Assembly (NCBI RefSeq): GCF_000010985.1
Contig: NC_013940.1
Span: 1-64,000, forward strand
Direction of reading: 5' to 3'
From: Deferribacter desulfuricans SSM1
GTDB lineage: Bacteria; Chrysiogenota; Deferribacteres; Deferribacterales; Deferribacteraceae
DNA: 64,000 nt
Each line of letters opens with the position of its first letter. Position 1 is the stretch's first letter. This document shows positions 16,690-35,575 of this stretch, piece after piece. The notes below the pieces were generated by a model that had not been told where the DNA came from, ran no database searches, and was given only the letters and a program-made list of their open reading frames with translations. The translations under genes and the position numbers were made by a program.

Positions 16690-17178
16690 ATGTGGTTTAG
16701 AAAAAAATATGGAAAACAACAAAAAAAGAAAAAATTTTTTAATAACAAAGGATTTACATTAATGGAATTAATTATAGTATTAGGTATATTATTAATTTTA
16801 TATGCTGCATTTAAACCTAACAAGCAAGCTAAAGATAGTGCTATTGCTCAATCTATCGTTCAACAGATTGAAGCTTTAAATAGTGCGTTTGAAATTTGCG
16901 TACAGGCTCAAGGTTCCATGGATTATTCTGCATGTACTGATTCAGTACTACAAAATTATGTACCTAATAATGACTTAAACGCACTTAAAAATACTCAAAT
17001 CAAAACAACTATTACTTATTCTTTTTCTTCAGATGGTACTTCTATAACATATACAATACCATTAAATACATTATCAGGAAATAGATTCACTAGTATGCAA
17101 ACTATGATCGCTAATATGTTAAAAAACAAAGCTCGTAGTGTAACAACAACAAGTTCAGGTGTTCAAGCTACATTTTAA
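16690..17178 (+). CDS. type IV prepilin (PilS-like)
   Basis: A 162-residue prepilin. A basic 21-residue leader ends in KG, and mature residues FTLMELIIVLGILLI carry the conserved Glu5 (Glu26 of the precursor) and the hydrophobic helix. Two cysteines in the globular domain (FEICVQAQ and SACTDSV) could form a disulfide, as in R64 PilS-type pilins. The leader is longer than in type IVa pilins, which suits the type IVb class. It would be cut by a prepilin peptidase, which is not found in this window. It heads the pilus operon 16690-24944. Confidence 0.88.
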   Translation: MWFRKKYGKQQKKKKFFNNKGFTLMELIIVLGILLILYAAFKPNKQAKDSAIAQSIVQQIEALNSAFEICVQAQGSMDYSACTDSVLQNYVPNNDLNALKNTQIKTTITYSFSSDGTSITYTIPLNTLSGNRFTSMQTMIANMLKNKARSVTTTSSGVQATF

Positions 17179-17225
17179 TATAATAAATATAATAATTATT
17201 ATTGGTATTAAAAAAGAGGTGTTAA

Positions 17226-18821
17226 ATGAAAATAAGATTTTATAAATTTAGTTTAGGTATTTTAATAATATCATTATTATTTATGGGCGGATGTGCTAGA
17301 AAGAAAACATATATACCAAAAGATATTACAAAAAAATCTACGAAACCTATTGTAAAAAAAGAAAGAACCGTAGATGAAGAAATGAAAACTGCTCATAAGT
17401 TAATAAATAATTATTATGTATTAAATATTAATAAAAATAAAAAATCAAAAACTGTAGATAATTCAGTAGATAGAAAATTTGTAGAGTTAAAAAATAAAGA
17501 TTCACGTTTTGCAATGCTTGTAACAGTTGTTCCATCTAATAAAACACCTATAGAAACATTAAGTAATTTATTATCGAATATAGGTTTGTTATTAGAAGTT
17601 AAAAATAGTGTTCAATTAGTTCATAATATACCATACACTTTCAAAGGCAGTTTATATGATTATTTAGTTACACTTTGTAATTTAAATGGTATTGGTTTTG
17701 ATTATAAAACTCCTGGTAAAGTAGTTTTAAAAGCATTTGAAACTAAAACATATGATGTTAGTTATATCAATGTAATTCAAAAATATAATATTACTATGTC
17801 TTCAAGTACTTCTGGTGATAGTAGTACACAAGCTACAACAAGTCAAAATCTTGAATTAAAAACAGAAATGAAAGATTCTGACCTATGGCAGCAGATACAA
17901 AACGATTTAAGTGTTATAGCTAGTAATAAAGGGTATTTTACAATAAACAAGGCTTTAGGTACAGTAACTATTACTGATAGAATTCCATTTTTCGAAAAGT
18001 ATGATAATTATTTTAAAAAATTAAAAGAAAGATTATCAAAAGAAGTATTTCTTGATGTTAAAGTATTAGAAGTGACATATGACAGTAATAAAGAACAAGG
18101 TATAGATTGGAATGCTTTAGCTTTAGGAAAATATAATGGTAACAAATTAGGTATTAGGACAAATTTTGTTTCTGGTTCACCAGATGTTTTTGATACACAA
18201 CCACCTGGATTTAGTAGTTTATCATTACCTGTTTTAACAGTTTCTGATGCAGATGATGTAATTAAATTTATAGCTGGTTTTGTTAAAGGAAAAGGAAAAT
18301 TGACAGTTAAATCACAACCACGTCAATTAGTACTCAATGGACAACCTGCAGTTATTCCAGTGGGACAGATTATTAAATATATTTCTAATATTTCATCAGA
18401 TTCAGGTAGTGATTCTTCTTTAACTGGTGGGGATTTATCTTATTCTGTAGAAACTGGTACTTTACAAACAGGTGTAGTTTTACAATTTTTACCAAAAGTA
18501 ACTGATGACAATAATATTGTGTTAAATTTAGGTGTAACAATTAACAGATTGGACAAAATGGATGAAAAAAGTTTGAATGGTATAATTTTGCAATTACCTC
18601 AAACATCTGTTAGAGCTGTAAGTTCTACAGTAAAGATGAAATCTGGGCAAACAATTGTTATTGGTGGTATCCTTTCGGATAATACTAATGAAATTGAAAA
18701 TAAAGTACCTTTAGTTGGAGATATTCCTATTTTAGGGAATTTGTTTAAATATAAAAAGAAAGAAAAAACTAAGACAGAAATGATAGTTATTATTACAGCA
18801 CATGTAGTAGAATTAACTTAA
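17226..18821 (+). CDS. pilN: lipoprotein secretin (PilN/BfpB-like)
   Basis: A 531-residue outer-membrane pore protein. A lipobox FMGGC lipidates Cys23. The N-terminal domain (about 95-185) resembles the STN/N0 fold, an N1-like domain follows, and the secretin domain (about 265-530) ends with the signature VPLVGDIPILGNLFKYK and then a conserved TEMIVIITAHVV strand. Lipoprotein secretins are typical of type IVb pili (R64 PilN, BfpB). It follows the prepilin gene by 47 bases and would form the gate for the thin pilus. Confidence 0.9.
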   Translation: MKIRFYKFSLGILIISLLFMGGCARKKTYIPKDITKKSTKPIVKKERTVDEEMKTAHKLINNYYVLNINKNKKSKTVDNSVDRKFVELKNKDSRFAMLVTVVPSNKTPIETLSNLLSNIGLLLEVKNSVQLVHNIPYTFKGSLYDYLVTLCNLNGIGFDYKTPGKVVLKAFETKTYDVSYINVIQKYNITMSSSTSGDSSTQATTSQNLELKTEMKDSDLWQQIQNDLSVIASNKGYFTINKALGTVTITDRIPFFEKYDNYFKKLKERLSKEVFLDVKVLEVTYDSNKEQGIDWNALALGKYNGNKLGIRTNFVSGSPDVFDTQPPGFSSLSLPVLTVSDADDVIKFIAGFVKGKGKLTVKSQPRQLVLNGQPAVIPVGQIIKYISNISSDSGSDSSLTGGDLSYSVETGTLQTGVVLQFLPKVTDDNNIVLNLGVTINRLDKMDEKSLNGIILQLPQTSVRAVSSTVKMKSGQTIVIGGILSDNTNEIENKVPLVGDIPILGNLFKYKKKEKTKTEMIVIITAHVVELT

Positions 18822-18880
18822 TGTAGTAAAAAAATATGAAAAATAAAAATGTTTAAAAAAATATTTAAAGGTAGAGCTAT

Positions 18881-20134
18881 ATGAACGTTTACTTGGAAAT
18901 ACAAGGTAATTTTTATAGATTAATGGGTAATGTTATAGATTTGGTAGATCCAAATATAATTAATGAAAATGATTATGTTATATTTACCGGTAACTCTAAT
19001 AAAATAGAAAATATTAATTTTAAAAATTATGATGATGTAAAACAGTTACAAGAATTAGGTAGTTTACCTGCATTGTTTGTACCTGATGTTATATCAACAA
19101 AAGAATTAGGTACTATTACCAGTTTAACATCTATAGAGCAAGATGATTTTGAATTGGTGAATAAATACCAGTTCAAAAATATTTATTCTTATGAATCTAT
19201 TGTATGGAATTATTTTTATAATAATACAACATATAAAAGTAGTCAGGAAACAGTAATTTTTTTAGATTATATTAACAATTATTTATGTTTTACTTTATTA
19301 GATACGAATAATTTATTTAAGTTTAATGCTATACCTGTTACTAAAGAGGAATTAAGCAGTTCTATAAAAGAATTATTTGAGACTTTTATAGCAAGTACAA
19401 TAGGAATTACTTTACTAAAAAATAATAATATAAAAGTGTATATAAATACATATTATTCAAATTCAGACTTAGTCTATCAAATTAAAAGTGAATTAAATTC
19501 TATTATTAATGAATCAAATGTTAAATTAATAAATTTTGATTTAGTACAAGTAATAAAAACAGATATTAATATAGGTAAATTTTATACATATGTTGAATAT
19601 AATAAATTACTTACTAATTTAACATCAAAAAAATATAAAAAATATTTATTTGGAGCAATATTATTACTTATTATGAGTGTAATTTTAAATTTTTATATTA
19701 AAACATATAATAAAAATATAAATGATCAAGTTATTTACTATCAAAATCAAATAAATAATTATAATAATAAATTAAACACTTTAATTGCTACTAATAGTCA
19801 TTATATTTTATTAAATGAATTGAAATCTCAAAATAATAAAATTTTTAAATTAATTGAAAGTATGTTAATTTTTAATATAAAGAATTATAAATTACATTCT
19901 TTCAAATATGATAGAAAAACGAATTTGCTGCATTTATATTATACTCAAATACAAGATATAATAAATCCTTTATTAATGGAAGATTTTGGAAAAATTATAC
20001 AAAAATATTTAAAAAGTATTTTTAAACAACCTATAACCTTACGTATAAATACAGTTTTTGCTGATAAAAACAAACAATTAATTGAAGTAACAATTCCAGT
20101 ATCAATGTTATTAATAGATAGCGAAAAAAGTTGA
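18881..20134 (+). CDS. type IV pilus inner-membrane protein (R64 PilO / GspL-like)
   Basis: A 417-residue bitopic protein: a cytoplasmic domain (1-250), one membrane span (about 254-274), a short coiled coil (about 280-320) and a small periplasmic domain. This layout matches GspL/BfpC and the PilO accessory protein of R64 thin pili, which connect the assembly ATPase to the envelope. Placement between secretin and PilP-like genes supports this; no diagnostic motif is visible. Confidence 0.6.
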   Translation: MNVYLEIQGNFYRLMGNVIDLVDPNIINENDYVIFTGNSNKIENINFKNYDDVKQLQELGSLPALFVPDVISTKELGTITSLTSIEQDDFELVNKYQFKNIYSYESIVWNYFYNNTTYKSSQETVIFLDYINNYLCFTLLDTNNLFKFNAIPVTKEELSSSIKELFETFIASTIGITLLKNNNIKVYINTYYSNSDLVYQIKSELNSIINESNVKLINFDLVQVIKTDINIGKFYTYVEYNKLLTNLTSKKYKKYLFGAILLLIMSVILNFYIKTYNKNINDQVIYYQNQINNYNNKLNTLIATNSHYILLNELKSQNNKIFKLIESMLIFNIKNYKLHSFKYDRKTNLLHLYYTQIQDIINPLLMEDFGKIIQKYLKSIFKQPITLRINTVFADKNKQLIEVTIPVSMLLIDSEKS

Positions 20135-20157: not shown

Positions 20158-20784
20158 ATGCAAGGACAAATAAACAGAATAAAAATGGTAGTATTAATAT
20201 TAATACTTGTTTCTATCTATTTTTTAAAAACAGCAAAGGAAACTTATGATTCTATTAATGTATCTATGTTACAACAGCTTGAACAACAATACACTCAATT
20301 AGTTAATATATATAATGAGCAATATAAAAAAATAGAATCCTGGAAGAAAAAATATAATAATAATAATAATATAATTTTTAAGAATATAATTTTATTAAAC
20401 AATATATTTGATATTGATATGTTAAGGTTAACATTATTATCTCCTGTAAAAATTTTAAAAAAATATAATAAAGAAGATAAAAAACTTATTTCTCCTCAAA
20501 CCAAAAAATCTCAAGTAATAGACAATTATATTGATTTCTACAAAATAAATAATAAACCTACTAATGTGAGAATACTATCTGAGTCATTTATGTTAAAAAT
20601 AAAAAAAGAAGATAGTTCTATTTCTCAAGTAGAAACTCCAGAATCTAAGTTAACTGAAAATGGTATAATTATAATGGAATATTTAAAATCTCTTTTAAAT
20701 AAGTATTTATTAACATATGATATTATAAAATATAACAGTTTAGATAATACATTTACTATTTCACTTACATTATATGGAAAATAA
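20158..20784 (+). CDS. bitopic pilus alignment protein (PilO/GspM-like)
   Basis: A 208-residue protein with one N-terminal membrane span (about 9-23), a coiled coil (about 30-65) and a C-terminal domain in the periplasm. Size and topology match GspM or type IVa PilO, partners of the preceding GspL-like protein. It starts 24 bases after the previous gene with AGAGGG upstream. The assignment is by topology and operon order only. Confidence 0.5.
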   Translation: MQGQINRIKMVVLILILVSIYFLKTAKETYDSINVSMLQQLEQQYTQLVNIYNEQYKKIESWKKKYNNNNNIIFKNIILLNNIFDIDMLRLTLLSPVKILKKYNKEDKKLISPQTKKSQVIDNYIDFYKINNKPTNVRILSESFMLKIKKEDSSISQVETPESKLTENGIIIMEYLKSLLNKYLLTYDIIKYNSLDNTFTISLTLYGK

Positions 20785-20801: not shown

Positions 20802-21962
20802 ATGCCTAAGTTTAATTTTAAATTACCAAAATTTAAAATTCCAAAACTTGCTTTTAAAGTTCCAAAGTTTAGTTTTAAAATTCCAAAAATGAATATAAAA
20901 GCACCTAAGATGAAAGTTTCTTCTTCTAAAGGTTTAGGAAATAAACGTGTATTTATTTTATTAGGTGTTTTTGTTATAGTTCTTGTTGGGGTAAAATTAT
21001 ATAAGAATAACCCTAATATGATAAATAATATTTCAAATTTTACTAATAATTATACAGCACCATCACAGGTTAAACCAACTCAAAAACCACAATTAGTAGT
21101 ACAACAAAAAAAATTGGCACAGGATACAAAACAAAACTTACTAAACACTTCTTTAATTAAGAAAAAACAAACAAAATTACCTTTTACCAGAACTAATACA
21201 ACTAATGAAAAATATGATTACTCTATAAGAAATAAATCAAATGATGAAATAGATGAAATTGTACGAAATATTTTATATGCTAAACAAAAAGAATTAAATA
21301 CCAAAAAAGATTTAATTGAGCTAACTTCAACAAAATATCAAATTTTAAAAGCTATATTGAATGCTACACCTAAATATATAAAGCAGGATAAAACATTACA
21401 AAAAAGTTTAGTTTTAGCAATTATTGAAAAAGAATTAGGTTTAGAAGTTGATAAAGAGTTACTAAAGAGCGAATATTCAAATCAATCCAACAATACCACC
21501 TCTCAGTCTACTACTGTTGTTTCTGAGCCAGCACCTTCATTGCCAGAAGGTATGCAAAATACAACAACCCTAGCTACAACTTCTTCACCTATTGAAACAG
21601 TAAATAACGACAAGTTACTACATTCTAATAATTCTGATTCTGTAATAATTGACCCTGAAAAACAACCATCTATAGATGACATACCTTATATTGTTAGGGT
21701 TAAAAATGACCTTACAATAAATGATATTTATGCTATAGGTTCTACTTGGTATACAGAATTATCTTATAGAAATATACCTTTAAAAGCTACTGTAGGTACC
21801 TATATTGACCCGTCTAAGAGAATTTATATTAGTAAAATTACTAGCCGTGGAATAATATTAAAAGATAAAAAACATAAAAATAGACAATTATTTATTAGTT
21901 ATAATACAGGTACAGAATCTGTTGGATTACAAACTGTAGATTTATACACTAAAGCAAAGTAA
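20802..21962 (+). CDS. pilP: PilP-like pilus protein with basic N-terminal repeats
   Basis: A 386-residue protein. The first ~45 residues, on the cytoplasmic side, are six short repeats of P-K-[F/L/M] followed by alternating hydrophobic and Lys residues. A membrane span follows (about 50-68), then a long polar linker and a C-terminal domain (about 295-380) with the GspC/PilP-like pattern VGTYIDPSKRIYISKI...GIILKD. PilP/GspC proteins link the inner-membrane platform to the secretin. The repeat segment is not typical and could bind lipid, DNA or the ATPase. Confidence 0.65.
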   Translation: MPKFNFKLPKFKIPKLAFKVPKFSFKIPKMNIKAPKMKVSSSKGLGNKRVFILLGVFVIVLVGVKLYKNNPNMINNISNFTNNYTAPSQVKPTQKPQLVVQQKKLAQDTKQNLLNTSLIKKKQTKLPFTRTNTTNEKYDYSIRNKSNDEIDEIVRNILYAKQKELNTKKDLIELTSTKYQILKAILNATPKYIKQDKTLQKSLVLAIIEKELGLEVDKELLKSEYSNQSNNTTSQSTTVVSEPAPSLPEGMQNTTTLATTSSPIETVNNDKLLHSNNSDSVIIDPEKQPSIDDIPYIVRVKNDLTINDIYAIGSTWYTELSYRNIPLKATVGTYIDPSKRIYISKITSRGIILKDKKHKNRQLFISYNTGTESVGLQTVDLYTKAK

Positions 21963-22008: not shown

Positions 22009-23793
22009 ATGATTGCTCAAGGAAGTGAGAAAACAAAAATAGATTTATTTTTAGAAAACCTGATTAATTTTGGTCAAGGTGAGGTTAGTGAAAACTTAAT
22101 AGTTCAGAACAGACTAAATGAAAAATCATTTACTAATATTATTTCTATATTATTAGAATATAAAGTACCAAAATTTTTAATTAATAAAACTTTAGCTTAT
22201 ACTTATAATACTTTATATATTAATGATTCTTTATTAAGTACAGATTTAATAGATGTTGATTTGTTTAACAATGAAGATTTAAATAAACAATTAAACGCAT
22301 TAAATGTGTTGCCTATAAATAAAGAAAAATTAAAACAATTGTTAGATTTTGGGAAAATTGATACTAATATAAGTAAAGATTTTTTACATGATAAAATTAA
22401 TACAAGTAAATATATTATAGCAGTAAGTTATAATGTTTTATATAATTTACATATTTTAGGTAAAATAAAAACAATTTTAAAGAGTAATGATATATTTTTT
22501 GTTTTGGTTAATGGGGATTTAATTCCTCGTTTTTACACGGAACAGTCAGACTCAAATAAATTGGTTGATAACTTTTTAAATATTAGAGATATATTAAATA
22601 AACTATTAAATGCTGCTATTTATGAATATAATGCTTCTGATATACATTTTGAACCTAGCAAAGACAGAGTTAGTATAAGGTTTAGGGTTGATGGTTCTTT
22701 AGTCAAATATACAGAATGGACTATTTCTACTTATTCTCAAATTGCCAGAATCCTATTTTTAGAAGCTCAATTATCATATGATAAAGATACTGAAATACAA
22801 GATGCAAAAATTATGTATACAGAAGATACCACTGGAAAAACTCATGATATTCGTTTTTCATCAGTGCCAACACCTTATGGTCCTACAATTGTTTTAAGGT
22901 TATATTCGTCAAATGGTACAGATGTACTTAATTTAAAAGATTTAGGTTTTTTACAATATGAATTGGATAAAATAGTTAAATTGATTAACAACCCATATGG
23001 AATTATTTTTGTTACTGGTGCTACAGGTTCTGGTAAATCAACAACTCTTTATTCTATTTTAACTGATTTAGGTAGGGATATTTCAAAGAAAATTTTGAGT
23101 ATAGAAGATCCTATAGAAGTAGATATTCCGACAATACAACAAGTCGAATATGATCCACATTTTAAAGTTACATTTGCAACAGCTATAAAAGCTTTTCTTC
23201 GTCAGGACCCTGACATTATAATGGTTGGTGAAATTAGGGATTTAGATACAGCAAAAGAAGCAGTTACAGCTGCAATTACAGGACACTTAGTATTTTCAAC
23301 GTTACATACTAACACTGCTATAGATGCTATAATGAGGTTAAGGTCCCTAGGTTTAGAAAACTGGCAAATATCTTCTTCTTTATTAGGTGTAATTGGACAA
23401 AGATTGGTTAAAAAATTATGTCCTAACTGCAAATTAAGAGTTTCGAAAGAGGAATATATAAGAAATTTTAATACTAAACATATTAATATAAAACAAATAG
23501 AACTATTAAGAGATATAGATTATGTATTTACACATTCTTTAGAGGGGTGTTCATATTGTAGAAATACTGGTTATGTAAGCAGAACAGTAGTAGCTGAAGT
23601 ATTAGATGTAGATGATTTTATAAAAGAGTTAATTGATAATAATGCTTCTATATTAGACATAAGAAACAGAGCTATTCAAAATGGTTTTAGAAGTATGGTT
23701 AAATCAGGAATAGAGTTAATGACAAAAGGTGTAACATCAATTGATGAATTATTTAAAGTGTTTGGTTCCCAGATGTATACTATTAATTATTAA
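22009..23793 (+). CDS. pilQ: type IV pilus assembly ATPase (PilQ/GspE family)
   Basis: A 594-residue AAA-type secretion ATPase. The Walker A GATGSGKST lies near residues 337-345, the Asp box and Walker B (IIMVGEIRD) near 404-412, and the His box (GHLVFSTLHT) near 425-434. A four-cysteine zinc module (CPNC about 471 and CSYC about 514) is typical of extension ATPases of the GspE/PilB class. The N-terminal ~180 residues are less conserved. It powers pilus extension together with the platform protein encoded next. In the R64 thin-pilus order this is PilQ, which is not the secretin of the same name. Confidence 0.93.
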   Translation: MIAQGSEKTKIDLFLENLINFGQGEVSENLIVQNRLNEKSFTNIISILLEYKVPKFLINKTLAYTYNTLYINDSLLSTDLIDVDLFNNEDLNKQLNALNVLPINKEKLKQLLDFGKIDTNISKDFLHDKINTSKYIIAVSYNVLYNLHILGKIKTILKSNDIFFVLVNGDLIPRFYTEQSDSNKLVDNFLNIRDILNKLLNAAIYEYNASDIHFEPSKDRVSIRFRVDGSLVKYTEWTISTYSQIARILFLEAQLSYDKDTEIQDAKIMYTEDTTGKTHDIRFSSVPTPYGPTIVLRLYSSNGTDVLNLKDLGFLQYELDKIVKLINNPYGIIFVTGATGSGKSTTLYSILTDLGRDISKKILSIEDPIEVDIPTIQQVEYDPHFKVTFATAIKAFLRQDPDIIMVGEIRDLDTAKEAVTAAITGHLVFSTLHTNTAIDAIMRLRSLGLENWQISSSLLGVIGQRLVKKLCPNCKLRVSKEEYIRNFNTKHINIKQIELLRDIDYVFTHSLEGCSYCRNTGYVSRTVVAEVLDVDDFIKELIDNNASILDIRNRAIQNGFRSMVKSGIELMTKGVTSIDELFKVFGSQMYTINY

Positions 23794-23816: not shown

Positions 23817-24944
23817 GTGATAGAAAATTTGCTAAAAGATTTAGGAATAGCAAATGTTAAAAGGAAATTGAAATTAGAAGAATTATATGAATTTTTTAAT
23901 TTTTTAAATAGTTTAATGGCTTTAGGTTATGGTATGGAAACATCTATAAATTTTATATTAAGTAGTTTAGACAAAAAACAAGCTTATTTGAAACAGGTAT
24001 TTACTGAATTAAAGTTATATTTGAGTCGAGGTCAAGCTTTAAGTGATTTTATAGATAAAACTAATTATATAGATAAATCTTATTTACCTTTGATACTTAC
24101 TGGAGAAAAAACAGGTACATTAGCTTTACCTAAAAATAACAGAGAACCAGGGCAACAATCTATTTTTGAAATTATAATTAATGATTTAAAAGAAAAAATT
24201 GAATTATATAAAAAAGTAAAATCTGCTATGACTTATCCAATAATTATTATTACAGTTTTATTTTTATTGATTATAGCTTTAACTTATAAAATTTTACCTC
24301 AAATTATGAAAACATTAATGGATATGGCTGGTGGAGATGTTTCTAAGTTTCCGCCTCAGACTTATTATATGTATAAATACCTTGAATTTATGAAGGCACA
24401 TGGTACTGAAGTTTGGATTGGCTTTGCTGGTGTTATTGGTAGTATAGTTTATTTATTCAAATCAGGTAAAATATTTGAATACCTACAGGATAATTTTTTT
24501 AAAATACCAATAATAGGAAATATATATAAATTAAAATTTTATATGTCATTTTTTGATAATTTAAATACATTTTATTCTGTTGGTTATGATACTGTTACTG
24601 CGTTGAAATTTCTGAAACAAAATGAAAAAAATGTATTTTTAAGAAAATATTATACTGATGCAGTTTTTAAACTAGAGCAAGGTTTACCTTTACATAAAAT
24701 ATTAGACCCAAGATTATTTGAACATATAGCAATAACATTAGTAAAACAAGGTGAAAAAGGTAATTTAGGAGAACAATTCAAATATTTAATTGAACATTAT
24801 AAAGATAAATTATTAAAAACTTTTGAACAGGTTCAGAGTCTTATTCAGCCTATATTATTGTTAGTAGTTGGTACTTTAATGGGTAGTATTATGGTAAGTT
24901 TAGTAAAAGGTATTTATGGATTTATGGCTTTACTTGGGCAATAA
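23817..24944 (+). CDS. pilR: type IV pilus platform protein (PilR/GspF family)
   Basis: A 375-residue inner-membrane protein starting at GTG with AAGAGG upstream. It has the duplicated GspF/PilC layout: cytoplasmic helical domain (about 20-135), first span (about 138-160), second span (about 194-215), second cytoplasmic domain, and last span (about 345-370) after LIQPILLLVVGTLMG, which is the family signature. It is the rotor platform for the ATPase. It ends the pilus operon; the TraL-like gene follows after 38 bases, so the two machines may share a transcript. Confidence 0.9.
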   Translation: MIENLLKDLGIANVKRKLKLEELYEFFNFLNSLMALGYGMETSINFILSSLDKKQAYLKQVFTELKLYLSRGQALSDFIDKTNYIDKSYLPLILTGEKTGTLALPKNNREPGQQSIFEIIINDLKEKIELYKKVKSAMTYPIIIITVLFLLIIALTYKILPQIMKTLMDMAGGDVSKFPPQTYYMYKYLEFMKAHGTEVWIGFAGVIGSIVYLFKSGKIFEYLQDNFFKIPIIGNIYKLKFYMSFFDNLNTFYSVGYDTVTALKFLKQNEKNVFLRKYYTDAVFKLEQGLPLHKILDPRLFEHIAITLVKQGEKGNLGEQFKYLIEHYKDKLLKTFEQVQSLIQPILLLVVGTLMGSIMVSLVKGIYGFMALLGQ

Positions 24945-24982: not shown

Positions 24983-25378
24983 ATGGTAAGTGGTTTCAAT
25001 AATAGAGATTATGCTTTATTTCAAGAAAAAGATCTTGATAATATTATTGATTTATTTGATTGGTTTAGACCAGAAGATGTAATATTTCTTTATGTTTACT
25101 ATAGTGGTATAGTAGGGTTATCAATAGGTGTTTATGTTACATTTAAGTTTGATCCATTCTTTTTATTCGGGAAAAACGGAATTATAGGTGAAATTCCAGG
25201 TGGATGGTATGCATTATTTTTATTATTAGGAATTCCATTTTTATATTTTAATATTATTACTCGAATTAGAAAAAAATATACAAAAGGGTATTTAGGTAGA
25301 AAACTATTCAGGCTAACTAAATCTAAAATAGGTAAAATTTATTCTCCTTTTGAAAAGTATCGTTTTGATGACTTATAA
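24983..25378 (+). CDS. traL: TraL/VirB3-like conjugation protein
   Basis: A 131-residue protein with two membrane spans (about 38-56 and 75-96) and a basic cytoplasmic tail (KKYTKGYLGRKLFRL). F-type TraL has the same layout: a short N-terminus, two adjacent spans and a basic tail with an aromatic/leucine motif. TraL/VirB3 works with the TraC/VirB4 ATPase at the inner membrane. The assignment rests on topology and on the TraE, TraK and TraC homologues nearby. Confidence 0.55.
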   Translation: MVSGFNNRDYALFQEKDLDNIIDLFDWFRPEDVIFLYVYYSGIVGLSIGVYVTFKFDPFFLFGKNGIIGEIPGGWYALFLLLGIPFLYFNIITRIRKKYTKGYLGRKLFRLTKSKIGKIYSPFEKYRFDDL

Positions 25379-27044: not shown

Positions 27045-27758
27045 ATGGAAGAATCTATTAAAAATGATAATATTAAAAATAGTAAAGAAAATAAACTAAA
27101 AGAAGCTTTTAAAGAGCTTAATCAATTAGATGAAATATTTACTAATCAATTATTAAGGTATAAGTTTAGTTTTAAAATTTTATTAGTTACTTTTATATTA
27201 AGTATATTAATTTCTTTTTTAGCATCTATTTATATGTTTTCTATTTTAAAGACAGCTATTAATCAAGTAAATCACCGCCCATATTTAGTATTAAGTGATA
27301 CAGTATATATGGGAGCTAAAGCAAATGCTAATCTTGAAAAGTATATACAATCGTCTGTGCAAAATATCGTATCAAATTTGTTAACTATAGTACCTAAAAA
27401 TAGTTATTACAATTTAAAATATATTACTTCATTTACCAATTCATCTCAAATAGTAACTACATATAAAAAATGGTTAGAAAATAAATTATATTATTTAAAT
27501 ACAATTAATGGGGTAATGTTATTTGTTCCGGATCCTAACTCATTTAATTACAAAATTACGAATAATTCTTTAAGCAAAGGTGGAGATTTATCATTTCTAA
27601 CTCAAATTGAAGGAGATGCTTATATTTTAAGTAATGAAAAACATCAAAAAGCTCGTTATGTTATTAAAATGGCTGTAGTTGTAGGTGATGTACATAAAGG
27701 AGAAAATCAAATAGGTTATAATATAAATGATATTATTATAGAGGAAATAGGGGGTTAA
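27045..27758 (+). CDS. traE: TraE/VirB8-like conjugation protein
   Basis: A 237-residue bitopic protein: a charged cytoplasmic N-terminus (1-42), one membrane span (about 44-68) and a periplasmic domain of about 165 residues. The periplasmic part has the pattern of TraE/VirB8 (helices with NIVSNLLTIVPKNSYY, then a beta-sheet). TraE links the inner-membrane complex with TraK and TraB. Position directly before the TraK-like gene (5-base gap) matches the F order traL-E-K. Confidence 0.65.
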   Translation: MEESIKNDNIKNSKENKLKEAFKELNQLDEIFTNQLLRYKFSFKILLVTFILSILISFLASIYMFSILKTAINQVNHRPYLVLSDTVYMGAKANANLEKYIQSSVQNIVSNLLTIVPKNSYYNLKYITSFTNSSQIVTTYKKWLENKLYYLNTINGVMLFVPDPNSFNYKITNNSLSKGGDLSFLTQIEGDAYILSNEKHQKARYVIKMAVVVGDVHKGENQIGYNINDIIIEEIGG

Positions 27759-27763
27759 TATAT

Positions 27764-28696
27764 ATGAAAAGAAATAGAGTATTAAAAAATAAATTATTTT
27801 TTATTTTATTATTAATTTTATTAAATTTTAATATATTATATGCCCAACAATTGGTTTTACCGGATCCTATTCCAATACAAAATAATAAATCACAATCATT
27901 TTCAGATTTACCTTTAAAATATCCTTATTTAGTTGAATATTATGGTCAGGTTATTCCTATAGTAGTACCTTTTTCTATTCCTATTATAATTGAGTTACCT
28001 GATATCGTAGCTGAAAAAACTGTAGAAAGTTCGTTATCAGGTTTAGAAGTTTACCCTAAAAGCCGAGAAGAAACTAAAATTATTAAATTAATGGCCACAA
28101 CAAATGTTAATAGAGAAACGGTATTACATGTAAAATTAGTATCTGGAATGGTTTTAACTTTTGCTGTTAAGATTGTTAAAATTAATAAAAATACTGATGT
28201 TTTTCAGTTTAATACAAGATATAAAGTAATTGATAAGATACACACTAAACAAAACCAACCTATGGGTTATATAAAACAAATAAGAGTAGATTCACCAGAT
28301 GTTGTAAATTATGCTGTAGACAGATTAGCATATCAGCAATTATTAGCATTAGCCGGTTTAAATGAAGATATACCAGTTAAAGATACTGATTATACTGTAT
28401 CTGAAGATAAAAATAGGGTAATTAAGATAAAAAAATATACTGTTGCTTCTACTATAATAACTATTAAAAGTGCACTTAAAGGAAATGATAAAAGAGTACC
28501 TGTTATGTTATTTGGTTTAAAAACATATTTTTGTAACAAAAAAACAACTCCTTATTGGGTATTAAATGTAGATTATATTAAAAATATATTTCCTGAATAT
28601 TATAAAATTTCTTACAATAAAGAAGTTGATAGTATTATAGAACCTAACAAGTGTGTTCCTGTGTATGTTATTATATGGGAAAATATTAAAAATTAA
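27764..28696 (+). CDS. traK: TraK/VirB9-like outer-membrane pore protein
   Basis: A 310-residue exported protein with a signal peptide (about 1-28, ending LYAQ). The mature part is beta-rich: a domain about 85-150 and a C-terminal domain about 210-305 with paired strands (KRVPVMLFGLKTYFCNKK, PYWVLNVDYI). F TraK is a secreted beta-domain protein forming the outer-membrane ring with TraV and TraB. Order after the TraE-like gene supports this; sequence evidence alone is weak. The gene start overlaps the GGGG ribosome binding site region at the end of traE. Confidence 0.6.
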   Translation: MKRNRVLKNKLFFILLLILLNFNILYAQQLVLPDPIPIQNNKSQSFSDLPLKYPYLVEYYGQVIPIVVPFSIPIIIELPDIVAEKTVESSLSGLEVYPKSREETKIIKLMATTNVNRETVLHVKLVSGMVLTFAVKIVKINKNTDVFQFNTRYKVIDKIHTKQNQPMGYIKQIRVDSPDVVNYAVDRLAYQQLLALAGLNEDIPVKDTDYTVSEDKNRVIKIKKYTVASTIITIKSALKGNDKRVPVMLFGLKTYFCNKKTTPYWVLNVDYIKNIFPEYYKISYNKEVDSIIEPNKCVPVYVIIWENIKN

Positions 28697-28804: not shown

Positions 28805-29176
28805 ATGAAAAAATTTTGTTCAAAACTTAATTATTTAATATTAACTGGAGTAAACTATTTTCTTATTGGTTTAACAATGGCATATGCAGAAGAACCTGAT
28901 TATTCTGGATTAGTAAGTGGTACTGATAAGAATGTTTCACCAGTTAAAAAATTTTTTGGAGCTTTATTAAATGAAGGTGTAACTGGTACTGCTGTAACTA
29001 TTCTTTGTTGGTTAGCCATTATGTATGGATCATTCAAAGCAATTGGAGAATTCTTTTTTGCAAACGATGACGATGCTAGAAGAGAATCAGCTTTTAAAAG
29101 GCTTTTAAAAGCTTCATCACCAGCAATAGGTGGAGCTGTTATTCTTCTTTTAAGAACACAATTTACGGTAAAATAA
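28805..29176 (+). CDS. traA: conjugative pilin (TraA/VirB2-like)
   Basis: A 123-residue prepilin. A long signal sequence ends at about residue 28 (AYA, then EEP). The mature ~95 residues have two hydrophobic helices (about 58-78 and 105-118) separated by a short charged loop (DDDARRES), the VirB2/TraA layout in which both termini face the periplasm. It has its own promoter, a strong AAAGGAGG ribosome binding site and a terminator immediately after, as expected for a major subunit made in excess over the machinery. Confidence 0.78.
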   Translation: MKKFCSKLNYLILTGVNYFLIGLTMAYAEEPDYSGLVSGTDKNVSPVKKFFGALLNEGVTGTAVTILCWLAIMYGSFKAIGEFFFANDDDARRESAFKRLLKASSPAIGGAVILLLRTQFTVK

Positions 29177-29249: not shown

Positions 29250-31229
29250 TTGGCTAAAAAAAATCGTAACTTTGATCCAGAAGAACGTGTAAAACAAACT
29301 TACGAAAGAGAAGTTAAGAAGTTACGTTATAAACTTAAAGGTCAGGAGAAAAGGCTTTATTTCTTTTTATTATATGTTGTTTTATTATCTTCATTAGCAT
29401 CATTTTTATTTTTTACTGTATTATTAAGTTTTGTATTTGTTGCACTTATACCTTTTATTGTTAAAAAAATTGCACAAATTGATTATAGTCCGGTAGAATT
29501 ATTAGGTGTTCCTGATATGCCTTGGTATTTAAGAATAGGAGAGGATGAATTTGAATTACCTGTAGCATTTCCTGATAATGAGATTAAGAGACACATGTTA
29601 TGTCCTGGTACAACTGGTTCCGGTAAAACATCAAGTATTATGTATTTATGTAAAAATCAGATAGAGCGTGGTGGTGGGGTTTTAATGGTTGATGGTAAAT
29701 CTGAAAACCCTACATGGATGGATTTTTATAGTTTAGCTAAAATATATAATAGAGATGATGAAATCTTTTTGTTATCATTTAAATCTGGTGCTTTTGCATC
29801 TTCATCTACCTGGAATTTTCTAATGGAAGGTAGCTCACCTGAAATTGCTGATATGATTATAAACCTTGCTATTGGTGATACGTCGAGTGCAGGTGATAAC
29901 AAAGTATTTATGATGAGAGCTATGAACTTAATTAAGGTTGCTTTATCGGCCTTAACCTATTTAAGAGATGTGAAAGGTGAAGTTATTACTTTGGATGATT
30001 TAATAGAAATTATACACTTAGAAGCTTTAATAGCTGTAGCTTCTCCTTCTATAGAACAGATACCTGAATCAAGTAAACAATATGCAAAATATTGGATACC
30101 TAATGATTACATAGAGAAAGGTTTAACTGTTCCAGCTAAAATACCTGTTATTACATATTTAAAGTCTATTGGGGGTGATTTAGATATTAATCGTCCACTT
30201 GAATTAGATAAAATGGATAGGCAATTAGTTGAAAGTATGAAAAGACAGCATTCTTATGCTGAAATGCAGTTTACAGAAGCACTTAACGATTTTTCTAACA
30301 TTTATGGTAAAGTGTTTAAAGCTAAATATTCAGATGTATTTTTAAGTGATATTATTAAAAATAATAATTTATTATATGTATTAGTTCCATCTCTTGAAAA
30401 AGGTGAAGAAACAAAACGTTCAATAGGTATGATGGTTGTAACTGCGATAAGAATTGCATGTGCTAAGATGCTTGGGGATTCACCAGAAGGTTTAAGAGAA
30501 CAATTAAAAAAAGAGGAATTAAGAAAAAGAGCAAGACCTGCATTTCTTGTTATATTAGATGAGTATGGTAGTTATAAGACACCTGGTTTAAATGATATTG
30601 CAGCTCAAGCAAGGTCTTTAGGAATTTCGCTTTTAATTGCTGTTCAGGAGTTTGCATCACTTGAAGTAAAAGGTGATGCTGAACAAAAGAACAGAATATT
30701 AGGTAACACAGTTATTAAGTTAGTGCTTAGATTAGAAGATAGTAAAACTATAAAAGAAATTATAGAAGCTGCTGGTAAAGAAGTAATGATGGTAGAACAG
30801 AGTAAACAAGAATCCAATATTAGAATATTAGATAATGTAGCAACAAAATATCGTGAATATAGTTTAAGGGAAGTTGATAAATTAAAAGTAGAAGATTTAA
30901 GACAATTGCATGATGGTTATGGTTATATCATGTATAATGAAAAGATTCGAAAAATAAGAACAGGTTATGTAAAACCTAAACATCCTGCTACATTTAGATT
31001 ACCTAAAATGACACCTAAGATTTTATTAAAAAATGTAATTTATAATGAATTTCATATTAATAATTATAAAGATGTGGATTTATTATCTATTGAAAATTTA
31101 TCATTACAAAATTTGAAAGAATCTAATGATATAAATACTATAAAAGATGAAGATCCTAAAAATACTCCTTTTAGTCGTATACGTAATATAAAAAACAGAA
31201 ACCGTGGTCGTAGAACTAATGTTATATAA
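29250..31229 (+). CDS. traD: type IV coupling protein (TraD/VirD4-like)
   Basis: A 659-residue ATPase starting at TTG (GGGGAA upstream; no better start nearby). Two membrane spans (about 30-72) precede the motor domain. Walker A GTTGSGKTSS lies at about 119-128 and Walker B FLVILDEYGSY at about 431-441. A conserved GNTVIKLVLRLEDSKT segment lies near 492. These are features of VirD4/TraD coupling proteins, which bring the relaxase-DNA complex to the secretion channel. The C-terminus is short and basic. Its end overlaps the next gene, a type IV prepilin. Confidence 0.9.
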   Translation: MAKKNRNFDPEERVKQTYEREVKKLRYKLKGQEKRLYFFLLYVVLLSSLASFLFFTVLLSFVFVALIPFIVKKIAQIDYSPVELLGVPDMPWYLRIGEDEFELPVAFPDNEIKRHMLCPGTTGSGKTSSIMYLCKNQIERGGGVLMVDGKSENPTWMDFYSLAKIYNRDDEIFLLSFKSGAFASSSTWNFLMEGSSPEIADMIINLAIGDTSSAGDNKVFMMRAMNLIKVALSALTYLRDVKGEVITLDDLIEIIHLEALIAVASPSIEQIPESSKQYAKYWIPNDYIEKGLTVPAKIPVITYLKSIGGDLDINRPLELDKMDRQLVESMKRQHSYAEMQFTEALNDFSNIYGKVFKAKYSDVFLSDIIKNNNLLYVLVPSLEKGEETKRSIGMMVVTAIRIACAKMLGDSPEGLREQLKKEELRKRARPAFLVILDEYGSYKTPGLNDIAAQARSLGISLLIAVQEFASLEVKGDAEQKNRILGNTVIKLVLRLEDSKTIKEIIEAAGKEVMMVEQSKQESNIRILDNVATKYREYSLREVDKLKVEDLRQLHDGYGYIMYNEKIRKIRTGYVKPKHPATFRLPKMTPKILLKNVIYNEFHINNYKDVDLLSIENLSLQNLKESNDINTIKDEDPKNTPFSRIRNIKNRNRGRRTNVI

Positions 31230-31809
31230 GAAAAACAATAATAGATTTATTAGAAATAATATATGTATAAATAAGAATATTAATAATAAAATTAGCAATA
31301 ACAGAGGCTATACATTTATTGAATTAATTATAGTTTTAACAATTTTAGCTATTTTAATTGGTACGATAATGGGTTCGTATCATGAAAGAAAAATGATAGC
31401 AATATGCAATGCAGTAACAAAAGAATTAGAAAATTTTGCTGAAGCATCATTAATGTTTTATTCTCAAAAGGGTAGGGGTCCAAATAATGCTTCTGAATTA
31501 TATGGCACTTATTTAAAAAAAGTAGGTAATACAAATGTAAGTGGTAAAAGTTATATAGTATCTTCATCTGGTGATGTAATTACTATAACAACTGATGTCC
31601 CATCTGGAGTTGGTACATGTGTACAAAATAATACAAGATTAAGTACTCAAGTAACTGCTTTAAGTGGTGTAGATAGGATTACGTTAACAATTAATGGTGT
31701 TTTGGGAAAGTATTACTTTGATAATAACGCTGATTGGAGTAATTACGAAAAAACTATTATATATAGAGAGATATATAATTTTACAACTGATACAAATACA
31801 AATTATTAA
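31219..31809 (+). CDS. second type IV prepilin/pseudopilin
   Basis: Read from the ATG at 31219 (196 residues), inside the end of the TraD-like gene; a GTG at 31204 is also possible. A long Asn/Lys-rich leader ends RG at residue 30, and the mature helix YTFIELIIVLTILAILIG carries Glu5. The globular part has two cysteines (IAICNAV near the helix end, GTCVQNN) and a major-pilin-like alpha-beta pattern. It is encoded inside the conjugation block, away from the pilus operon, and overlaps the coupling-protein gene, so its product may serve as an adhesin/minor pilin or a mating-pair component. Confidence 0.8.
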   Translation: MLYKKNNNRFIRNNICINKNINNKISNNRGYTFIELIIVLTILAILIGTIMGSYHERKMIAICNAVTKELENFAEASLMFYSQKGRGPNNASELYGTYLKKVGNTNVSGKSYIVSSSGDVITITTDVPSGVGTCVQNNTRLSTQVTALSGVDRITLTINGVLGKYYFDNNADWSNYEKTIIYREIYNFTTDTNTNY

Positions 31810-31908: not shown

Positions 31909-32316
31909 ATGATTGGATTTTTAAAAAGTATTTTTAATAATCAAAAAGATAAAGAAAAAATAAAATATCAAATTAAGAATGATAATTTAATAAAAAAAGT
32001 TATTAAAGAAAGAAGAAGAGAACCAAGAATTAAGTACAAAGATGATGTAATAATTAAAGTTTATGATAATGTTATTCATTGTAATAGTTTTGATATTAGT
32101 TATCACGGAATGGGTATAACATTAGATTCAGAATTAAATGCAGCCTTTTTTCATGTTAATCAAATGGTTATGATTAAATTAGATTCTTATAAAGAATATA
32201 TGCATGGAGAAATTAAGTATATTATTAGTAATGATGAATCATTATGTATAGGAGTTCATTTATTAAATCCTACAAGCGAGCATATAGGTTTTGTAAAAAA
32301 ACTAGAAAATAAATAA
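31909..32316 (+). CDS. PilZ-domain protein (c-di-GMP receptor)
   Basis: A 135-residue protein. A basic N-terminal segment (1-34) precedes a PilZ domain with both binding motifs: RRREPR (residues 35-40, supplying the RxxxR pair Arg36/Arg40) and DISYHG (62-67, matching D/N-x-S-x-x-G). PilZ domains bind c-di-GMP and often act on pilus, flagellar or secretion ATPases. It is the first gene of the VirB4-like transcript (35-base gap), so c-di-GMP control of the conjugation ATPase or of pilus extension is a direct inference from context. Confidence 0.88.
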   Translation: MIGFLKSIFNNQKDKEKIKYQIKNDNLIKKVIKERRREPRIKYKDDVIIKVYDNVIHCNSFDISYHGMGITLDSELNAAFFHVNQMVMIKLDSYKEYMHGEIKYIISNDESLCIGVHLLNPTSEHIGFVKKLENK

Positions 32317-32350
32317 TAATAAAATAAATAATAATTGAGGGATAAATAAT

Positions 32351-35300
32351 ATGTTAGACTTATTTAATATAGCAGACATAAAAGATTTTAAATTAGATAG
32401 ATTTGTAGGGTTAGATCATAGAGATGCACATTCTACTTTAGGGTTATTTTTCTTTACGGATGGTAGTATAGGTTTTGCTTTAAAAGTAAAAGGTGCTTAT
32501 CAAGTTATACATAATTTAGATCAATTAGAAAGTAATTACCAGAAAATTGTATCTTTTTATGATAAATTAGTATTTCCTTTTTCAAAGAATACAGGAGCAA
32601 CTTATCAGTATATTTATACTCCTGATTTTGATTACAGTGATTTAGAGCGTAAATTATTAAATAGTAACTTTTTTAAGACAGACAAGGAAGCTTATGAAAG
32701 TTATGCTAAAAATTATGGAGATAAAATAGACGAAATTAAACGTGCTTTAGATGAATTAAATATTAATATTAATTATGGTGATTTTGATGAGCAAGAAAAA
32801 GCTCAAATGAAAAAAGAAATTGCTCAGTTAAGATATGAGTATGATACACTTTTAAAAAACTTTATTAGTTCAACTGGATTTGTAAATTATTTAGAAAAGT
32901 TTTATAATGCTCTTAATTTAAGAACCGTAGAGTTATTAAGAGATAAAATAATAGGAAAAGCTAGAAGACACAGATATTATTTATTTGTAAGATATTATCC
33001 TAATTATAAGGAATTTAATTTTTCTCAAAATGATTTAATAGAAGACATAAATTTAAATTATTTTGATGAAGATAAATTATTAAACCAAACTACATATCAG
33101 ATATTAAAAAATGTAATAACTCATGCGATAGCTGCAAAAAGTAGTTTACCTTTTGGTGGTGAGTTGTTAGATGCAAATCAAACTATAAGTGTTTTGTACA
33201 GGTTTTTAGGATTACCTGCAATGGAATATAATTCACTTACACCAACTACAAGGTTGTTTCCTTATAAAATGGAATTATTACCTGACAAATTAATTGTTTA
33301 TGATGTACCTTCACCTAATATGCCTGTTTTTGATAATAATGGTCATATGATAAATCATAAATTGAAAGACAAAACTTGCGATATATTATTAAAGCTCTAT
33401 TCTTTAACATCTTTACCTGATCCTGGACAAGCAAATTATATGTTACCAACAGATTTTCTAGCAAGGTTAAAAGGGGATTACTCTGTAACGTGGAGTATTT
33501 TTAGAGAAGATAGAAAAGAAACAAGAAAACGTATAAACATGAATAGAAGAACATTTGAATTTTTAGTTGATATTCCATTTCTAGGTAAAAGGTTATTTTC
33601 AGAAGAAGCTGTTGAAATAAAGAGAAAAATGTTTAAATTTGCTGAATTAAATACACAACTTGGAAGTTTTGGTGATTTATTTAGAGTTGCGACTCATGTG
33701 ACATTACGTAAAGCCATTCCTCACGAACATATAACTGAAACATATATTTCTTTAAAAAAAGATAACAGTATTACAATTAATACTAAAGCTGAAGATGTAA
33801 AATTAAATAAAGAGTATGTTAAAATAGCTAGAGAAGATAAAGATATTAGAAATATTGTTTATAAAGATGAGAGAGTTTTCACAATACAAACTGATTATTT
33901 TAGAAAAATTGGTGGTGGTGTTAGTGCATTAGAAGAAACTGATTCTATGCCTGAAATTTTCTTTAATAGTGCTTATCCTTTTACATTTAGAGCGTGGGAT
34001 TTATTAGAAAGATATCAACCTATGTATTCAGCATCTATAGGTGCATTTTTACCTATGTACGAGGAACCAGAAGGCATGACTGAACCAGGTTTAATAGTAG
34101 AAACTTATTCAGGTATATATAATTTAAATCATTTTGCATTACCAGGTGCTAAAAACTATGCTGTAATTGGTGCTACGGGTTCTGGTAAGACATTTTTCCA
34201 AGTAAACAGGAATATAGTAGGATATGGTAAAGGTGTAAGAATTATTTTCGTAGATAGAGGTGGAGCTCTTTTTAGAGCTGTTAAATTCTTAAATGGACAG
34301 AATATAAAATTACGTACATCTTACAATTATGAAGCTATTAAGGACAAACTAAATCCATTTGTTTTAGCTGCACCTGATGTTTTTGAAAGAACAGATGATT
34401 ATGATGAATATAAACAGTCTATTAGAGAGTTTATGGTAACATTGCTTTGTTCGATATGTCAGATGGAAAATGAAAATATAGCTATTAGATATTTTACTGA
34501 ATTATTGGATGACTTATTATTTATAGATTTTAACAAAAATAAGGTAATTAGTGAAACTACAGGTGAAGCTTCTGCTCAAGTAACATTTAGTGATATATAT
34601 AATTATTTACTGAATAAAAGAAATGAACCAGGGTGGAGTGAGTTTTTAAGTAATGATAAAGTATTATCCTCTATTAAGTTATTTACTAAAGGACAATTAT
34701 ATGGTTCATTATTTGATGGTATAGTAAGGAAACCATTAATTACTTCACCTGCTGTGGCAATAGATTTTGAAGGTTTAGAATCTGAATTAGTTTCACAAAT
34801 TTCATTGGCAATTATTAATAGTTATATATGGAATGTTGTGCTGGGGACAGGTGGATTCATTCCAGCCCTCAGCAAGAAATTTCGCTTTACTGACATAGCT
34901 TTAGATGAAGTCTGGTCAACGCTAAAGTCATTATTGGGACAGCGTGTAATTGAGACTGGTATGAGGACTTTGAGGAAGCATGGAGCAGGCATGGGTTTAC
35001 TGACACAAACGGCAGCAGATATAGGTAATTCACCTATTAGAGATGCTGTTGTAAACAATATTCAGAACTTATATGTGTTAGCATCAAACGAAGCTGACGT
35101 AATAAACTACAAAGAAGTTTTTGGTTTTAATGATGTAGAACTTGAACATATTAAACATTTGAAGAGTGAATTTGGTTATTACAATGATATTTATTATAAA
35201 TATTTAGGAAATGCGTATAGACATTTATCAAGTTTTGTTAAATTACGTCCTCTGCCATTAACATATGCAATTGTAACATCAGATGCAGATGATAAGACTG

Positions 35301-35575
35301 TTATTAACATATTACAACAGGAATTTGCTGAAAGATGTGGTGATTCTGAAAATATTAGTTATATGAAAGCAGTATTATTATTTAGTAAATTATTTCCAAA
35401 TAGTGTTAGAAGATATCCGAGATATGCTGAAATAATGGAGAAAGTAGGTAATAATTTAAATAATTTTGTAAAACATGTATTAAACGAAATAAATTTTAGA
35501 TTCGAAGAATTCAATTTAGAGAAGGAATTATTGGATATTAATTTAGATGTAGAAGCTTTACTGGATAATAGTTAA
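32351..35575 (+). CDS. traC: conjugation ATPase TraC/VirB4-like
   Basis: A 1074-residue protein, larger than F TraC (about 875). The N-terminal ~560 residues follow the VirB4/TraC_F layout; Walker A GATGSGKTFF lies at about 605-614 and Walker B DIALDEVW at about 846-853, with a GMGLLTQ segment (conserved TQ) near 878. It is the main inner-membrane-associated ATPase for pilus biogenesis and substrate transfer. The Walker B region (about 34840-35030) has visibly less AT-rich codon use than the rest of the gene. Confidence 0.9.
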   Translation: MLDLFNIADIKDFKLDRFVGLDHRDAHSTLGLFFFTDGSIGFALKVKGAYQVIHNLDQLESNYQKIVSFYDKLVFPFSKNTGATYQYIYTPDFDYSDLERKLLNSNFFKTDKEAYESYAKNYGDKIDEIKRALDELNININYGDFDEQEKAQMKKEIAQLRYEYDTLLKNFISSTGFVNYLEKFYNALNLRTVELLRDKIIGKARRHRYYLFVRYYPNYKEFNFSQNDLIEDINLNYFDEDKLLNQTTYQILKNVITHAIAAKSSLPFGGELLDANQTISVLYRFLGLPAMEYNSLTPTTRLFPYKMELLPDKLIVYDVPSPNMPVFDNNGHMINHKLKDKTCDILLKLYSLTSLPDPGQANYMLPTDFLARLKGDYSVTWSIFREDRKETRKRINMNRRTFEFLVDIPFLGKRLFSEEAVEIKRKMFKFAELNTQLGSFGDLFRVATHVTLRKAIPHEHITETYISLKKDNSITINTKAEDVKLNKEYVKIAREDKDIRNIVYKDERVFTIQTDYFRKIGGGVSALEETDSMPEIFFNSAYPFTFRAWDLLERYQPMYSASIGAFLPMYEEPEGMTEPGLIVETYSGIYNLNHFALPGAKNYAVIGATGSGKTFFQVNRNIVGYGKGVRIIFVDRGGALFRAVKFLNGQNIKLRTSYNYEAIKDKLNPFVLAAPDVFERTDDYDEYKQSIREFMVTLLCSICQMENENIAIRYFTELLDDLLFIDFNKNKVISETTGEASAQVTFSDIYNYLLNKRNEPGWSEFLSNDKVLSSIKLFTKGQLYGSLFDGIVRKPLITSPAVAIDFEGLESELVSQISLAIINSYIWNVVLGTGGFIPALSKKFRFTDIALDEVWSTLKSLLGQRVIETGMRTLRKHGAGMGLLTQTAADIGNSPIRDAVVNNIQNLYVLASNEADVINYKEVFGFNDVELEHIKHLKSEFGYYNDIYYKYLGNAYRHLSSFVKLRPLPLTYAIVTSDADDKTVINILQQEFAERCGDSENISYMKAVLLFSKLFPNSVRRYPRYAEIMEKVGNNLNNFVKHVLNEINFRFEEFNLEKELLDINLDVEALLDNS

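Follow-up and report, generated by a model that had tools for sequence, protein, structure and literature searches.

A type IV pilus (T4P) operon is physically interleaved with the genes of a conjugation-type secretion system on a megaplasmid of 308,544 bp in the deep-sea vent bacterium Deferribacter desulfuricans SSM1, whose genome comprises two contigs (chromosome C1 and plasmid C2) of together 2,542,933 bp. We analysed the first 64,000 nucleotides of the plasmid (C2 positions 1-64,000, hereafter the window) and searched the rest of the genome for the components of both systems. The interleaving had been proposed in a preliminary description of positions 16,690 to 35,575, made from the DNA letters alone, and it was borne out. 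As judged from sequence, the secretion core is a mosaic in which an F-type VirB4 and a TraB-like VirB10 are combined with a coupling protein of the DotL/TrbC type. The locus is probably the mating apparatus of the megaplasmid, in which the T4P would bring the cells into contact and a separate mosaic type IV secretion machine would move the DNA.

The pilus operon lies inside one transfer locus

The open reading frames (ORFs) of the preliminary description were recovered at the same coordinates. The T4P operon occupies positions 16,690-24,944, in the order prepilin, secretin, three untyped genes, ATPase and platform (Table 1). Transfer genes were found on both sides of it: a TraB-like gene lies upstream, at 7,092, and a block running from the coupling protein to VirB4 lies downstream, at 29,250-35,575; the transfer locus thus reaches well upstream of 16,690, where it had been taken to start. 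From 2,453 to 36,338 all genes but one are on the plus strand, the intergenic gaps are mostly below 120 nt with a maximum of 199, and the G+C content at third codon positions (GC3) stays between 0.08 and 0.18, a 72-codon gene being the sole exception. None of the plasmid's 17 insertion sequence (IS) copies falls within this interval, and its genes are uninterrupted. Because the spacing is tight and the composition uniform, the T4P and transfer genes form one locus and not two islands; nothing suggests two islands.

The single minus-strand gene (25464-26315) encodes 283 amino acids with an acidic tail ending in DPEPEF, which resembles the tail of single-stranded DNA-binding proteins; its product had no family match in Pfam. 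A full topoisomerase I gene (4862-6979) and a shorter topoisomerase-like gene (14461-16104) lie on either side of the TraB-like region, and the former is closest to the TopA adjoining VirB4 of the Myxococcus plasmid pYRE (6e-86).

Type IV pilus components

Profiles from Pfam and NCBIfam recognised the two prepilins, the lipoprotein secretin, the extension ATPase and the platform protein, so this part of what had been called a complete thin-pilus core stands. The GspL-, GspM- and GspC-like assignments of the three genes that separate the secretin gene from the ATPase gene (18,881; 20,158; 20,802) are suggested by gene order and membrane topology; none of the three matched a Pfam or NCBIfam profile, and no homologue of R64 PilO or PilP was found on the plasmid. 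Compared with known plasmid secretins, the protein at 17,226 matched that of IncP-2 (7e-25) and R64 PilN (1e-19). The pilus is not an R64-type (type IVb) thin pilus, its secretin being nearer to MshL than to PilN and the plasmid being without a PilU peptidase. As described previously, the second prepilin gene starts within the coupling-protein gene; the two share 26 nt when it is read from a GTG start, or 11 nt from an in-frame ATG.

The suggestion that the pilus is retractable gained support from a PilT-family ATPase gene at plasmid position 68,247. We ruled out a DotB/TraJ identity for this ATPase, which scored 1e-75 with TIGR01420 (PilT) versus 4e-40 with TraJ and 2e-27 with DotB. Only one prepilin peptidase was detected in the whole genome (C1:122,387) and none on the plasmid. 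The sole peptidase is chromosomal, and the plasmid T4P must therefore borrow the host enzyme; with it, all parts sought for a T4P are present, namely prepilin, secretin, extension ATPase, platform, PilT-family ATPase and peptidase. A shufflon at the adhesin-type prepilin (C2:282,956) was considered and rejected, as a repeat family to support one was not found.

A mosaic secretion core

The VirB4-like gene proved to encode a VirB4/TraC ATPase (Table 1). Against a TraC profile built without the plasmid protein it scored 1.1e-52, whereas the DotO profile gave no match at E<=10, and in the VirB4 tree it fell on the F side with support of 97/96. Constraining it into the DotO clade was borderline (p-AU 0.055), and a DotO/TraU-type assignment was not obtained; its relatives in the same phylum are remote and of F type only. 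The TraB-like protein matched TraB of a Deferribacterota F-type system (phmmer, 4.6e-10) and the pQBR/F TraB profile (HHalign, 94%). Its insert contains repeated YKDENGYYYLDENGNK-type segments ahead of the VirB10 domain, recalling the repeat region of DotG.

In contrast, the gene that had been described as TraD-like turned out to be of the DotL/TrbC type. Its product scored 6.6e-95 with a DotL profile and only 0.03 with F TraD, had IcmO/DotL as its sole match in the PDB (8e-47), and grouped with DotL in the tree (support 96/99) on a long branch. In constrained-tree tests, placements with F/R46 (p 0.25) or with IncP-2 (p 0.08) were not formally rejected, the branches being long; because these tests are not decisive, the type was assigned from the scores together with the tree. 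Its best plasmid relatives include members of Dot/Icm-type clusters. A pattern made from the coupling protein and two DotL-type relatives was used to scan 85,000 genomes and yielded 69 loci, all of which (69/69) matched DotL. A VirB4 that scored higher with TraC than with DotO was found in none of them (0/69). No relatives of VirB4 or of the coupling protein were found in viral contigs, and phages gave one distant traC match.

Because an F-type VirB4 occurs here with a DotL-type coupling protein, a pairing absent from all of these DotL loci, the predicted secretion core is a mosaic. It has the TraC-type VirB4 and TraB-type VirB10 of mating-pair-formation type F (MPF_F) together with the DotL/TrbC coupling protein of type I (MPF_I) or Dot/Icm systems. 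A full Dot/Icm identity, prompted by the coupling protein, was rejected: besides DotO, the DotG, DotH, DotM and DotC profiles gave no significant match on the plasmid (Dot profiles were built from the 69 fetched loci and plasmids, with 28-51 sequences each). The absence of TraH (PF06122) and TraU (PF06834), noted earlier for the window, extends to the whole genome, while the positive controls, two other Deferribacterota (G010, G016) and F, carry both. TraW and TraN had no significant plasmid match with profiles from F, for TraW also from G010 and G016; the TraN profile was a single sequence and is weak. Since TraH and TraU are absent genome-wide while the two other Deferribacterota have both, the system is not a canonical F system. 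Taken together, the idea of an F-like partner for the pilus held for VirB4 and the TraB-like VirB10, but not for the coupling protein or for TraH/TraU.

Small membrane proteins and a relaxase candidate

The names TraL, TraE, TraK and TraA, given earlier to the genes at 24,983, 27,045, 27,764 and 28,805, were not confirmed, as none of the products matched a Pfam or NCBIfam profile; our own TraL, TraE and TraK profiles were likewise unmatched. The product of 27,045 was the best match on the plasmid to a DotI profile, but only at 0.015. Its single-sequence model (pLDDT 54) has a helix at the N-terminus, then further helices and a curved sheet, and the top Foldseek matches were R64 TraM and DotI (E 4e-3, probability 1.0); on re-checking with VIA, unrelated folds reached equal Z and TraM/DotI were not singled out. 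This protein likely has a VirB8 role, and as modelled its subtype may be TraE-like or DotI-like. For the TraK-like protein the structural model was discarded (pLDDT 36). HHalign comparison of single proteins with 57 families was informative for TraB alone, the other top scores being mostly signal-peptide matches.

Directly 3' of the gene at 28805-29176 we observed a G+C-rich hairpin with a T-run (29191-29215), a pattern common after strongly expressed pilin genes. Two adjacent genes for large membrane proteins of similar layout (56080-58455, 791 amino acids; 58476-60962, 828 amino acids) are candidates for TraG- or DotA-like proteins; neither product had a family match.

When the rest of the replicon was searched, as the preliminary description had advised, a weak relaxase candidate was found at 258,138, while the prepilin peptidase was chromosomal only and TraH/U did not appear. 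No relaxase exceeded the curated cut-off on the plasmid in the three families tested. TrwC gave no match, and TraI_2 matched only a 38-residue chromosomal stretch.

Table 1. Features of the T4P and transfer locus and associated genes (plain coordinates, window; C2, elsewhere on the plasmid)
Feature	Position	Strand	Evidence
TraB/VirB10-like protein, 1007 aa	7092..10115	+	Pfam TrbI 1.5e-7; long repeat-rich insert precedes C-terminal VirB10-type domain
Small lipoprotein, putative TraV/DotD counterpart	11498..11881	+	lipobox; TraV profile 0.034, DotD 0.002, mostly over signal region
Exported thioredoxin-like protein	16076..16606	+	Pfam Thioredoxin_2 1.8e-6
Type IV prepilin 1	16690..17178	+	long leader, G|FTLME; Pfam N_methyl 7e-6; TIGR02532 1.4e-5
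Lipoprotein secretin, PilN/MshL type	17226..18821	+	Pfam Secretin 5e-38; TIGR02519 (MshL) 2e-59; TIGR02520 PilN 2e-35
GspL/PilO-like inner-membrane protein	18881..20134	+	position and topology only; one hydrophobic segment 253-276
GspM/PilO-like small bitopic protein	20158..20784	+	position and topology only; N-terminal hydrophobic segment
GspC/PilP-like bitopic protein	20802..21962	+	position and topology only; hydrophobic segment 44-70
T4P extension ATPase (PilQ/PilB/GspE)	22009..23793	+	Pfam T2SSE 4e-102; IncP-2 PilQ 4e-53; R64 PilQ 3e-40
T4P platform protein (PilR/PilC)	23817..24944	+	Pfam T2SSF 9e-23; GspF 1e-30
Small membrane protein, TraL position (candidate)	24983..25378	+	best of 57 families is pQBR TraL, HHalign p 0.01
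VirB8-type protein, TraE/TraM/DotI position	27045..27758	+	low-confidence model; Foldseek
Exported protein, VirB9 (TraK/DotH) position (candidate)	27764..28696	+	position only
Small exported/membrane protein, candidate conjugative pilin	28805..29176	+	position only
Type IV coupling protein, DotL/TrbC (R64, Dot/Icm) type	29250..31229	+	TraG-D_C 2e-13; NF041447 TrbC 1e-54
Type IV prepilin 2	31204..31809	+	N_methyl 4e-7; TIGR02532 1.4e-5; overlaps coupling-protein gene
PilZ-domain protein	31909..32316	+	Pfam PilZ 1.5e-8; both cyclic di-GMP motifs intact, RREPR and DISYHG (read from sequence)
VirB4 ATPase, F (TraC) type	32351..35575	+	TIGR02746 2e-28, under its equivalog cut-off
PilT-family ATPase	C2:68,247-69,278		TIGR01420 1e-75, under that model's cut-off
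DsbC-like protein	C2:71,039		2e-42 to proteins adjoining coupling gene in two F-type Deferribacterota relatives
Transglycosylase-like protein	C2:248,318
Relaxase candidate	C2:258,138-259,436		HLDEHHVHTH (HxDxxxHxH motif); PF03432 0.003, below cut-off
Adhesin-like large prepilin	C2:282,956-284,584		matches IncP-2 adhesin-like prepilin, 2e-11
IS200/IS605-type pairs	549-2328; 39602-41381; 44844-46623; 51015-52794; 62422-64000; twelve further on C2

Proposed function and its alternatives

In the mating apparatus that we propose, the T4P, with its two local prepilins and the adhesin-type large prepilin, would, to judge from R64 and PAPI-1, make the contact between donor and recipient. The prepilins would be processed by the chromosomal peptidase, the PilT-like ATPase would shorten the contact, and the PilZ protein may gate the mating pilus via cyclic di-GMP (c-di-GMP). 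The DotL-type coupling protein would then hand relaxase-bound DNA to the VirB4/TraB machine, and the plasmid may still be transmissible. We favour this reading because T4P-dependent mating is documented for R64, which pairs a T4P for mating in liquid with MPF_I (PMC10286972), and for PAPI-1, whose transfer requires its type IVb pilus (PMC5297154). It also draws on the IncP-2 plasmid pNY8709-IMP, because the T4P order and the PilT-family ATPase recur there and conjugation is known for its relatives p1 and pOZ176 (PMC7070040). Within the megaplasmid itself, it is favoured because transfer genes flank the T4P genes on both sides with close gaps and even GC3, and because family matches, gene order and the types of VirB4 and the coupling protein fit it; an IncP-2-like adhesin prepilin, a single chromosomal prepilin peptidase and a relaxase candidate are also present. 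Several points weigh against it. The secretion machine may be missing parts, because the TraL, TraE, TraK and TraA counterparts are not backed at the level of sequence and the genome has neither a canonical TraH nor a canonical TraU. For a relaxase there is a weak candidate only, the role of the T4P is unknown in the pQBR/IncP-2 plasmids, and for this plasmid the case is built from sequence and analogy.

The T4P could instead be unrelated to mating and lie in the transfer locus by chance; as an accessory pilus for adhesion, DNA uptake or twitching it would then be of use to the host, perhaps together with the chemotaxis genes of the plasmid. This account is conceivable but doubtful. The PilT-family ATPase and the chemotaxis genes, whose CheA matches IncP-2 CheA at 7e-67, would fit it, as would the discussion of the pQBR T4P in terms of adherence or motility with its role unknown (PMC13391042) and the finding that the T4P genes of the I-complex are dispensable in surface mating (PMC10286972). 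However, the second prepilin gene lies between transfer genes and overlaps one of them, and the T4P operon lies between the TraB-like gene and VirB4, which favours joint use; moreover, the host chromosome already has several further PilB/GspE- and PilT-type ATPases. It is improbable that the T4P replaces the conjugative pilus, leaving a secretion part without an extracellular filament and cells joined by T4P retraction. The genome-wide absence of canonical TraH/TraU, the lack of a plasmid match to TraW/TraN and the accompanying PilT would all suit such a replacement, but the IncP-2 plasmid is also unmatched by the TraH/TraU Pfam models, and nothing indicates that this plasmid is without a conjugative pilus. 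In the pilin position (28,805) there is still a small membrane protein, and TraH/U/W/N could exist in unrecognisable form. We give similarly little credence to a single hybrid machine, in which a retractile, c-di-GMP-gated T4P would be the sole pilus for mating, and the secretion system would join a Dot/Icm-type coupling protein to a VirB4/VirB10 core of F type and have no F-specific TraH/U proteins.

Decay of the plasmid is possible because it carries 17 identical IS copies, one of which splits a RecD2-like helicase gene, and this too tells against a working mating apparatus. That the locus is a remnant of a formerly transmissible plasmid, whose relaxase no longer works or whose secretion machine is no longer complete, would agree with the lack of a relaxase above the curated cut-off; yet the genes from 2,453 to 36,338 are uninterrupted, tightly packed and free of IS copies, and we think this outcome unlikely. 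Separate neighbouring islands were the result that the preliminary description had held would overturn it. Each module does have its own relatives, and the two lie ~96 kb apart in IncP-2/pQBR plasmids (PMC4989453). At the present locus, however, transfer genes stand on both sides of the T4P, the genes of the second prepilin and of the coupling protein overlap, the base composition is even throughout and the modules have no IS between them, which makes the chance adjacency of two unrelated islands very improbable indeed.

Other features of the megaplasmid

The 17 pairs of IS200/IS605-type tnpA/tnpB genes on the plasmid are identical. A fused Mre11/Rad50 gene between two IS200/IS605 sets has been reported from the 308-kb megaplasmid of D. 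desulfuricans SSM1 (PMC3175470), and a matching arrangement is found in the window, with a 1,197-aa ORF at 47,122 and IS copies at 44,844 and 51,015. The interrupted RecD2-like helicase gene (C2:178,956-183,177) is related to the helix-hairpin-helix gene adjoining the coupling protein gene of IncP-2. Another IS copy is inserted within chaperone-like genes (62,072-64,772). Elsewhere on the plasmid we noted CheA-, CheW- and CheY-like chemotaxis genes (C2:200000-206000), a putative type I CRISPR-Cas operon read by eye (C2:78608-85415), and many minus-strand genes of GWTVAHEQAxxGWxTxDKEILKLA-like repeats, an ankyrin-like family expanded on the plasmid (C2:130000-176000).

Comparison with known systems

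The IncP-2/pQBR megaplasmids of Pseudomonas, among them pBT2436, pQBR103 and pQBR57, share with the Deferribacter plasmid the T4P operon order and a related VirB4. On pNY8709-IMP the order is secretin, three genes, ATPase, platform, prepilin and PilT-like ATPase. These plasmids also have F-related VirB4, TraB, TraE and TraV, a coupling protein that leans to DotL, and chemotaxis genes; the transfer system of pNY8709-IMP matches the Pfam models for TraE, TraV and TraC, and not those for TraH or TraU. They differ in that their T4P is ~96 kb from the transfer genes (in pNY8709-IMP and likewise in pQBR57), whereas it is inside the locus in Deferribacter. Similarity between the proteins is remote, the Deferribacter coupling protein is much nearer to DotL, and its TraE/K/L counterparts have no sequence match to those of IncP-2/pQBR. 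Replication and partition genes gave ParA/ParB-level and DnaA-like matches only, and transfer-gene order differs. The T4P, chemotaxis and radical SAM genes of pQBR/IncP-2 plasmids are conserved and their purpose is unknown (PMC4989453, PMC13391042, PMC7070040). On pNY8709-IMP (NZ_CP096823.1 26344-30043) an adhesin-like prepilin gene is followed by several incomplete ORFs in which CQSGVW segments recur, an arrangement that looks like a shufflon.

R64 (IncI1) resembles the Deferribacter plasmid in having, near its transfer genes, a plasmid T4P whose secretin is a lipoprotein and whose ATPase is PilQ-like, a TrbC/DotL-type coupling protein and a DsbC-like protein. In contrast to R64, the Deferribacter VirB4 is of F type and not TraU/DotO, there is no match to DotO, DotG, DotH, DotM or DotC, and the plasmid is without a prepilin peptidase, has a PilT-family ATPase and shows no shufflon. 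The F-type systems of the two other Deferribacterota have related VirB4, TraB and DsbC-like proteins, but differ in having TraH, TraU and MOBH-type TraI_2 relaxases. PAPI-1, an integrative and conjugative element of P. aeruginosa with the pil2 type IVb pilus, is by description alike in that a conjugative T4P serves a non-MPF_I transfer system; it differs in being an integrated element. The secretion type of PAPI-1 is the GI type.

These comparisons extend the plasmid-borne combination of a T4P with a transfer system to a deeply branching thermophilic phylum. A pilus operon inside the transfer locus, and not elsewhere on the plasmid, strengthens the case that such pili, those of IncP-2/pQBR plasmids included, may serve conjugation. 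An F-type VirB4 beside a Dot/Icm-type coupling protein indicates that components are exchanged between secretion types. This matters for the classification of transfer systems, in which MOB-suite typing in PLSDB lists pNY8709-IMP and pQBR57 as non-mobilizable. The preliminary description had seen in the locus a different natural combination. The interleaving supports this in part, but in kind the pairing of a T4P with a transfer system other than type I had precedents in IncP-2/pQBR (PMC4989453, PMC7070040, PMC13391042) and PAPI-1 (PMC5297154). What is new in the Deferribacter plasmid is the phylum, the interleaving, and the occurrence of a strongly DotL-type coupling protein together with a VirB4 of F type; a further distinctive point is the PilZ protein adjoining VirB4, with its predicted c-di-GMP-binding motifs intact.

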